Assembly: GCA_017652265.1 (NCBI GenBank)
Contig: JAGCBH010000005.1
Span: 1 to 35,018 of the forward strand
Direction of reading: 5' to 3'
DNA: 35,018 bases
Source of the DNA: a bacterium
GTDB taxonomy: Bacteria; Cyanobacteriota; Vampirovibrionia; Gastranaerophilales; Gastranaerophilaceae
In this document: positions 28,441-28,992 of the stretch, in pieces
Layout: each line of letters begins with the position of its first letter
How positions within the stretch are numbered: position 1 is the first letter of the stretch
Notes under the pieces: model-generated
The model's database searches: none
Seen by the model: the letters and a program-made list of their open reading frames with translations, nothing else
Told to the model about the DNA's origin: nothing
Made by a program: the position numbers and the translations under genes

Positions 28441-28516
28441 TGGTGGGCGATACAAGGCTCGAACTTGTGACCCCTTGAATGTCGTTCAAGTGCGCTACCA
28501 ACTGCGCCAATCGCCC
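28441..28516 (-). tRNA. tRNA-Val(GAC) with encoded CCA and an unusual anticodon loop
   Basis: A cloverleaf read on the minus strand: acceptor GGGCGAT / ATCGCCC, D arm GCGC-AGTTGGTA-GCGC, anticodon stem CTTGA / TCAAG, loop ACGACAT, T arm ACAAG-TTCGAGC-CTTGT, discriminator A and encoded CCA (76 bases). Anticodon GAC reads valine codons GUC/GUU. Position 33, nearly always U in tRNAs, is C here, and A32 and U38 could pair to shrink the loop to five bases. Otherwise all stems are intact. Two partial copies of its 5' half lie immediately upstream. Confidence 0.85.
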
Positions 28517-28755
28517 ATATTAAATTTTTATTTGTGCCCTTATAACGAAACTTCGTTCCGTTGAGTGCGCTACCCCTCTCGAAAACGATTATCAATCGTT
28601 TTTCTCGGCAGAGTGCCAATCGCCCATATTAAATTTTCATTTCGCCCTTATAACGAAACTTCGTTCCGTTGAGTGCGCTACCACCTCTCAAAAACAATTA
28701 TCAATTGTTTTTTCGGCAGAGTGCCAATCGCCCATATTAAATTTTTATTTGCACC
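28507..28755 (-). repeat. Tandem repeats carrying fragments of tRNA-Val, with a conserved hairpin
   Basis: CCAATCGCCCATATTAAATT (plus strand) recurs at 28507, 28616 and 28724, giving units of 109 and 108 bp plus a partial third; the units differ at under ten positions. Read on the minus strand, each unit starts like the tRNA (GGGCGATTGGC). It has the D arm replaced by a hairpin (AAAACGATT-GAT-AATCGTTTT in unit 1, AAAACAATT-GAT-AATTGTTTT in unit 2, a compensating G-C to A-T change), resumes with GGTAGCGCACT, then has a second hairpin (AACGA-AGTT-TCGTT). No unit can complete an acceptor stem. Confidence 0.8.
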
Positions 28756-28770
28756 AACATGAAACTTTTA

Positions 28771-28992
28771 TTAAAAAAGTTTCGTTTTCCAGAGGTGTCG
28801 GCTGTTAGGGTTCATCATTTTTCGGAAATAATATCTTTGTGCGTTGTTTTCCGCTACATACGGTTTTAGAGATTTTACAAAACCTCTGTTATTACCTGTT
28901 GTCCTTGTCAATATTGGAGCAGGTATTTTGTAAGGATTCAGTGACGGAAAAAGATTTATTTTCACACTTGAAATACCGAATATTTTCCCCAT
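28771..28992 (-). CDS. Small hypothetical protein between the tRNA genes
   Basis: A 73-residue frame from ATG 28992 (begins MGKIFGISSVKINLF). GGAG is placed 5 bases upstream, one of the clear ribosome sites. The product is basic, with a Pro/Leu-rich part (PSLNPYKIPAPILTRTTG) and a basic C-terminus. It lies between tRNA-Cys (upstream) and the repeats and tRNA-Val (downstream) on the same strand. The C-terminal end enters the region next to the repeats, so the protein might be shortened. No family recognised. Confidence 0.5.
   Translation of the reverse strand: MGKIFGISSVKINLFPSLNPYKIPAPILTRTTGNNRGFVKSLKPYVAENNAQRYYFRKMMNPNSRHLWKTKLF

Follow-up and report, generated by a model that had tools for sequence, protein, structure and literature searches.

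A covarying hairpin module beside tRNA genes in Gastranaerophilaceae, probably a non-autonomous mobile element that copies tRNA ends

The window analysed here is a stretch of 35,018 nt from a Gastranaerophilaceae genome (assembly GCA_017652265.1, contig JAGCBH010000005.1). It represents contig C9 of a 1.59-Mb assembly in 66 contigs, termed G000 below. Two tandem units of 109 and 108 bp lie next to an intact tRNA-Val(gac) gene. Each unit starts with a copy of the 5′ end of this tRNA and then shows a hairpin. The locus raises the question of what these half-copies of a tRNA gene are and how they were formed. On balance, the better account appears to be a non-autonomous mobile hairpin that spreads within Gastranaerophilaceae, the tRNA half-copies arising with its insertion. 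The half-copies probably arose as by-products when insertion was accompanied by local duplication and fold-back, and would be a footprint rather than a function.

The units are situated at higher coordinates than the tRNA gene, which is its 5′ side because the tRNA is found on the minus strand (Table 1). A unit comprises, in order, the first 11 nt of the tRNA, the hairpin, the 3′ side of the D loop and D stem, a second small hairpin and an AT-rich leader. An exact copy of the 11-nt tRNA-Val 5′ end (GGGCGATTGGC) appears in none of 10,000 shuffles of the region, so the tandem units described in a sequence-only reading of the window are real. That reading had the repeats begin at 28507, but positions 28507–28516 are part of the intact tRNA. 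It also had the copy resume at the boundary of the D stem and the anticodon stem, which is incorrect. The point of resumption lies inside the D loop (GGTAGCGCACT), and therefore only 5–6 nt of the tRNA (GCAGT/GCAGTT) are replaced. The main hairpins of the two units are ACGATTGATAATCGT and ACAATTGATAATTGT. One G-C pair of the first is A-T in the second, with both arms changed, which bears out the compensatory change reported earlier. The third partial copy and the degenerate hairpin of that reading are present as well. No complete cloverleaf was found in the units by ARAGORN or Rfam; the units fall below all thresholds and only the intact tRNA-Val is detected.

The hairpin is a module of ~40–47 bp with the form 5′-ACTCTGCCGA-(variable stem-loop)-GAGAGG-(N)WA-3′. 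In G000 there are 22 matches to the pattern CTCTGCCGA-N12-42-GAGARG, and none to its reverse. A search of G000 with the unit, as proposed in the earlier reading, yields the two units themselves, but ~13 further places match the hairpin only, so the repeat is not confined to this locus. With one extra 5′ A, the pattern has a match in 164 of 170 sampled Gastranaerophilaceae genomes and in one of three genomes from other families of Gastranaerophilales; there is no match in ~213 sampled genomes from other orders or classes of the phylum. Copies per family genome range from 0 to 84. The carriers among named genomes in the pattern scan are Candidatus Gastranaerophilales (gut Melainabacteria). A sample of 1.0 Mb of loci provided 205 modules for closer analysis, and an A precedes the hairpin in 202 of these although it was not part of the query. 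A tandem duplication of the tRNA 5′ end that is neutral and particular to the tRNA-Val locus would fit the tandem arrangement and the lack of any unit at tRNA-Val in some relatives. However, the module recurs, conserved and covarying, at many kinds of tRNA and at other loci in 164 genomes. As the sole explanation, neutral duplication is refuted by the 22 sites in G000 and by the proportion of family genomes that carry the module, and we consider it very improbable.

The structure of the module is conserved in addition to its sequence, as had been proposed from the two units alone. Among 55 distinct hairpins of equal length, 90.3% of cells are paired (76.7% when shuffled) and there are 127 double-sided changes as against 41.5 in shuffled sets. 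Eleven of the 12 upper-stem pairs vary on both sides. The covariation score is 0.335, compared with 0.095 for shuffled sets (none of 500 shuffles reached the observed value) and 0.09 or less for slid partners. The CTCT/AGAG base of the stem gives no pairing information because it is invariant. A k-turn formed by CUC-UGCC-GA/GA-GAG was considered, but it is a guess only, as the positions are invariant and display no covariation. Hairpins are more alike within a genome (distance 0.28) than between genomes (0.38; permutation p<0.001), as expected from spread within genomes. Neither the module nor the units match an Rfam family above threshold, the best sub-threshold hit having an E-value of 0.077. 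No description of a hairpin family of this kind was found in the databases searched or in the open literature searched for Gastranaerophilales repeats; with respect to these sources the family is previously undescribed.

Empty and occupied forms of the same site are found. In the examples that follow, slashes delimit the segment that is replaced. A dispersed repeat of G000 is present in six copies, with small variations, as TTAGACAGC/GTAGCC/ACGTACGG, and in nine copies as TTAGACAGC/ACTCTGCCGA...GAGAGG(N)AA/ACGTACGG. The palindrome TCTGAGC/GTTA/GCGAAG is likewise seen both empty and interrupted by the module. A 5S-like sequence (GGGATG/GGAA/CGGGTGG), tRNA-Leu (GTGGC/GGAA/TCGGTAG) and tRNA-Glu (AAGG/GGAA/TTGAACC) are interrupted in the same manner. 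Occupied and empty sites in otherwise similar sequence are a mark of non-autonomous transposable elements, and they support the earlier suggestion of an unknown mobile repeat.

The 59 tRNA units with clear breakpoints show what is lost upon insertion. The missing target segment is 4–7 nt long and its first base is always G (GCAGC, GCAGT, GGAA, GTAGC, GGAGC, GCACC, GGATTC, GAAA and others). In many of these units a filler such as TA, AA or GAA follows. Insertion sites lie in or beside stem-loops. At sites with clear breakpoints the 4–7 nt are replaced rather than duplicated, and no target-site duplication of the usual kind is displayed. In a relative (L324), another fold-back repeat interrupts the module at tRNA-Val, and in five copies of the G000 dispersed repeat TTCA has given way to a second, unrelated hairpin. 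Thus nesting of hairpins is common here.

The dispersed repeat of G000 is intergenic and ~115 bp long (GTCCGAGAAACTTTTGC...GGCGGAGAACTGCTTTTA); it is found at ~20 places (L339–L355) and is host to two different hairpins. One of its copies is situated ~120 bp from the tmRNA gene.

The positions of the 205 modules relative to tRNA genes are uneven. A tRNA is found within 130 bp on the 3′ side of 90 modules and on the 5′ side of 9. For 74 of these 90 modules, the sequence immediately preceding is a copy of the end of the downstream tRNA (no more than 1 mismatch in 10), a test passed by 3.7% when other tRNAs are used. Seventy-nine of the 90 are on the tRNA strand and copy the 5′ end (Met, Leu, Val, Lys, Pro, Thr, Ile). 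The remaining 11, in antisense orientation, repeat the 3′ end, in some cases together with the terminator (Gln, Glu, Arg, Phe, Leu, Met). Non-tRNA sites consist of 5S-like sequence, common palindromes and the ~115-bp dispersed repeat of G000. Since the orientation of the module is set by the gene end rather than by transcription, and since sites outside tRNA genes are common, no function tied to the tRNA transcript can be the general explanation. The sequence-only reading had held that a unit found at many loci lacking tRNA context would be a generic repeat. This applies to the hairpin, but the tRNA half is copied afresh from whichever tRNA adjoins.

Past the module, the unit continues with the tRNA sequence beyond the replaced segment, often followed by the tRNA 5′ region copied in reverse complement, as with CCAACTGCGCTACAA beside TTGTAGCGCAGTTGG in L047. 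Over all units, complementarity of the tail to nt 1–26 of its own tRNA is 21.1, against 15.8 ± 0.47 in swapped controls. The order at tRNA loci is sense (with module), antisense, sense (intact), which is the shape made by fold-back and re-start of copying. The length of the duplicated leader is continuous, from none to >100 bp. This range argues against a fixed staggered cut, and a simple target-site duplication model was rejected on the same ground. A universal closing stem (P1) between left and right flanks was also rejected as a general feature, since its pairing exceeds that of mispaired controls only modestly.

Integration into tRNA genes typically leaves a partial copy of the tRNA next to a complete one (PMC9897764), and the units might then be remnants of attachment (att) sites left by a phage or an integrative and conjugative element (ICE). 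The units, however, are ~100 bp in length with no integrase or cargo, one hairpin is common to many different tRNAs, and the module is found in 5S-like sequence and palindromes too. Unlike the partial tRNA genes of phages and ICEs (PMC9897764), the copies carry a hairpin, are mostly of 5′ ends and stand directly beside the tRNA, with neither an open reading frame (ORF) nor an integrative element between. Phages and plasmids give no match to the module. Remnant att sites can thus be credited with hardly any probability. A viral reservoir of the module was likewise rejected: in IMG/VR, 120 stretches match a loose pattern, but by stem pairing a single one (L278) looks real and the rest fit chance. 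L278, an IMGVR UViG contig of viral class, displays a convincing module on the minus strand at ~10,090, with stem GAAAAAGGTGCC...GGCACGTTTTTT and no tRNA near.

The sequence-only reading had also proposed tRNA-like RNAs, processing signals or decoys. Here, a unit would be a small transcribed three-way junction, formed by the tRNA 5′ strand, the hairpin module, the second hairpin and a tail complementary to the tRNA 5′ region, and would act on the adjacent tRNA as a processing signal, decoy or antisense regulator. The complementarity of tails to their own tRNA and the covariation of the hairpin are both consistent with such a role. The half-copies remain exact, some over 18–26 nt, although the leader has diverged. 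In addition, a promoter-like box of 14 nt (TTGANAATTNAATA) precedes 45 of 77 tRNAs with units as compared with 3 of 54 without (p = 8e-11). Because the box and the exact half-copies are compatible with transcribed units, we keep a functional RNA in consideration, but regard it as unlikely. As a main explanation it is unsupported: the module is also found in antisense at tRNA 3′ ends and within 5S-like sequence as well as many non-tRNA palindromes. At tRNA-Val itself, relatives of different genera show two units, one, a variant or none, and the orthologues of most relatives are without the module. Six family genomes lack it under the strict pattern, the immediate 5′ copy pairs with its tail only slightly better than with swapped tails (14.3 vs 13.1 ± 0.33), and no Rfam family is matched.

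The box is almost restricted to tRNA units in the ~1 Mb of loci (e.g. upstream in L174, L050 and L079). It is promoter-like in appearance, and its spacing fits no standard sigma-70 promoter. The leader at tRNA-Val (AAATAAAAATTTAATAT) is possibly a degenerate version of it.

Table 1. Features of the tRNA-Val(gac) locus and of the tandem units on its 5′ side (window positions)
Feature	Position	Strand	Basis
Intact tRNA-Val(gac), source of the copied 5′ end	28441–28516	−	ARAGORN; Rfam RF00005, 59.9 bits
Unit 1, 109 bp, closest to tRNA-Val	28517–28625	−	
Unit 1, copied tRNA-Val nt 1–11 (GGGCGATTGGC)	28615–28625	−	
Unit 1, mobile hairpin module ACTCTGCCGAGAAAAACGATTGATAATCGTTTTCGAGAGG, replaces tRNA nt 12–17	28575–28614	−	
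Unit 1, copied D-loop 3′ side and D-stem 3′ strand of the tRNA (GGTAGCGCACT)	28564–28574	−	
Unit 1, second short hairpin AACGGAAC-GAA-GTTTCGTT	28544–28562	−	
Unit 1, leader immediately 5′ of the intact tRNA, recurring before each copy (AAATAAAAATTTAATAT)	28517–28537	−	
Unit 2, 108 bp	28626–28733	−	
Unit 2, copied tRNA-Val nt 1–11	28723–28733	−	
Unit 2, mobile hairpin module ACTCTGCCGAAAAAACAATTGATAATTGTTTTTGAGAGG	28684–28722	−	
Unit 2, copied D-loop/D-stem 3′ side of the tRNA	28672–28682	−	
Unit 2, second short hairpin	28652–28670	−	
Third, partial copy: leader alone	28734–28754	−	
Degenerate hairpin GAAACTTTTTTAATAAAAGTTTC, past the third leader copy	28761–28783	−	

With a mobile hairpin as the favoured explanation, the following course of events may be proposed. 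The hairpin, which would encode no protein, would spread in Gastranaerophilaceae genomes by opening a target directly before a G and replacing 4–7 nt of it. Targets would lie within or next to stem-loops, namely the tRNA D-arm, the T-arm when read from the 3′ end, 5S-like sequence and the loops of dispersed palindromes. The substrate may be a folded single strand at the replication fork, with a trans-acting enzyme or template switching during replication doing the work. Because insertion into the sole copy of a tRNA would presumably be lethal, the survivors would be insertions coupled to local duplication of the gene end and its flank, often with a fold-back copy, so that the intact tRNA remains. 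After such an insertion, tandem repeats would expand by repeated duplication, giving the two units at tRNA-Val. The tRNA half-copies would have no function of their own. More generally, and quite tentatively, there may be bacterial mobile hairpins that recognise stem-loop structure, replace a short segment starting with G without target duplication and copy pieces of gene ends in sense and, by fold-back, in antisense. These would need no Y1 transposase or reverse transcriptase of their own, and each tRNA insertion would produce a gene-specific tRNA-like unit together with a working gene.

Several points weigh against a mobile hairpin. There is no clean target-site duplication at non-tRNA sites, and the duplication of the leader varies from 0 to >100 bp. 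Simple neutral decay would predict neither half-copies that are often exact over 11–26 nt despite a diverged leader nor a 14-nt box common to the units. No transposition event was observed in the genomes compared, which are metagenome-assembled genomes (MAGs) and other assemblies. Finally, no mobility enzyme was identified. Y1_Tnp (RAYT/IS200) and reverse transcriptase (RVT_1) genes were searched for in 74 genomes, and they are missing from several genomes rich in modules, for example: G004 (38 modules, 99% complete) has no Y1_Tnp and G011 (44 modules) has no RVT_1.

A further possibility is that the module is a repetitive extragenic palindrome (REP) mobilised by a REP-associated tyrosine transposase (RAYT) or another IS200-type Y1 (HUH) transposase. 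Like a REP, the module is a short, dispersed, covarying palindrome in many copies, with precise ends and stem-loop targets. Among 45 family genomes, 17 have Y1_Tnp genes. Some of the replaced segments are GTAG, the REP motif that is cleaved by a recombinant E. coli RAYT (PMC3733652). However, no constant GTAG/CGTC tag flanks the module; the left 4-mers are TGGC (50), TAGC (12), CAGC (11) and others, and the right ones TAAG, TAGC, TAGG and others. G000 has 22 modules and no Y1_Tnp, the RAYT loci fetched show no module nearby, and module copy number has no clear relation to RAYT presence (p=0.08). A linked RAYT is not an absolute criterion for a REP, since species that have REPs may lack REPtrons (PMC3733652). 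Copying of tRNA ends is not described for REPs in the literature cited here. REP/REPIN and RAYT systems (PMC3733652, PMC3116915, PMC8266576) thus resemble the module as bacterial dispersed hairpins (REPs are 20–40 bp) that probably spread in trans, but the module lacks the tag and a linked RAYT, inserts at the D- and T-arms of tRNAs and takes the place of part of its target. We judge a RAYT-mobilised REP to be improbable. Neither a Y1 transposase nor a reverse transcriptase is needed for high copy number, and neither is linked to the module; both were rejected as its mover. An autonomous element bounded by two modules was also rejected, as in two such pairs spaced by ~2 kb (L130, L049) no transposase-like ORF was recognised by eye, with no family search made and the L049 stretch read for ORFs in part only.

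The nearest analogues in habit are the GC clusters of yeast mitochondria and hairpin elements of other mitochondria. GC clusters (GC42; PMC4478555) are palindromic, non-autonomous DNA of ~42 nt with many copies and a sporadic distribution. Their hairpins merge into new elements and they have no transposase of their own. In contrast to the module, which replaces 4–7 nt of its target, they have short duplications of the target (AG or ACT) on their flanks. The module further differs in its bacterial host and in tRNA insertions that bring copies of the tRNA end. The mitochondrial double-hairpin or RHE elements (PMC2800124) show repeated hairpin insertion, also inside rRNA genes, and complementary stem substitutions, but they are organellar, differ in sequence and have no reported duplication of tRNA ends.

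A family-wide mobile hairpin system would be an addition to what is known of a largely uncultured gut lineage and would explain the recurrent partial tRNA copies in Gastranaerophilaceae. Its insertion rule, a stem-loop target with a segment starting with G replaced, would differ from those of known bacterial repeats. Paired empty and occupied sites within single genomes make the movement of palindromes that carry no protein directly testable. There is also a caution for annotation. Contig ends lie no more than ~100 bp from units in many relatives (e.g. L084, L088, L102, L119, L164), which suggests that assemblies break at the units and that tRNA genes may go unseen in MAGs as a result. The units may thus be a common cause of missing tRNAs and of interrupted assemblies.

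Modules are also found in L083 and L137, contigs whose titles assign them to Muribaculaceae and Acinetobacter. The two MAGs are probably mislabelled, because the module is otherwise confined to Gastranaerophilales among the genomes sampled. In G000, one module (C40:5881–5920; L016, L036) is situated immediately before a gene that at its start resembles ribosomal protein L2 (MAIRKINPTSPGQRG), an identity judged by eye, within an apparent ribosomal protein operon. Lastly, a second hairpin class, AAGGACTCC-stem-loop-GGAGG (L335, L051, L109; G020, G088–G090), is present in 22 of 74 relatives, including another family. It shares the apical sequences TGACTAAATGTCA and GATTAAGTATC with the first class, whose place it also takes at tRNA 5′ ends.
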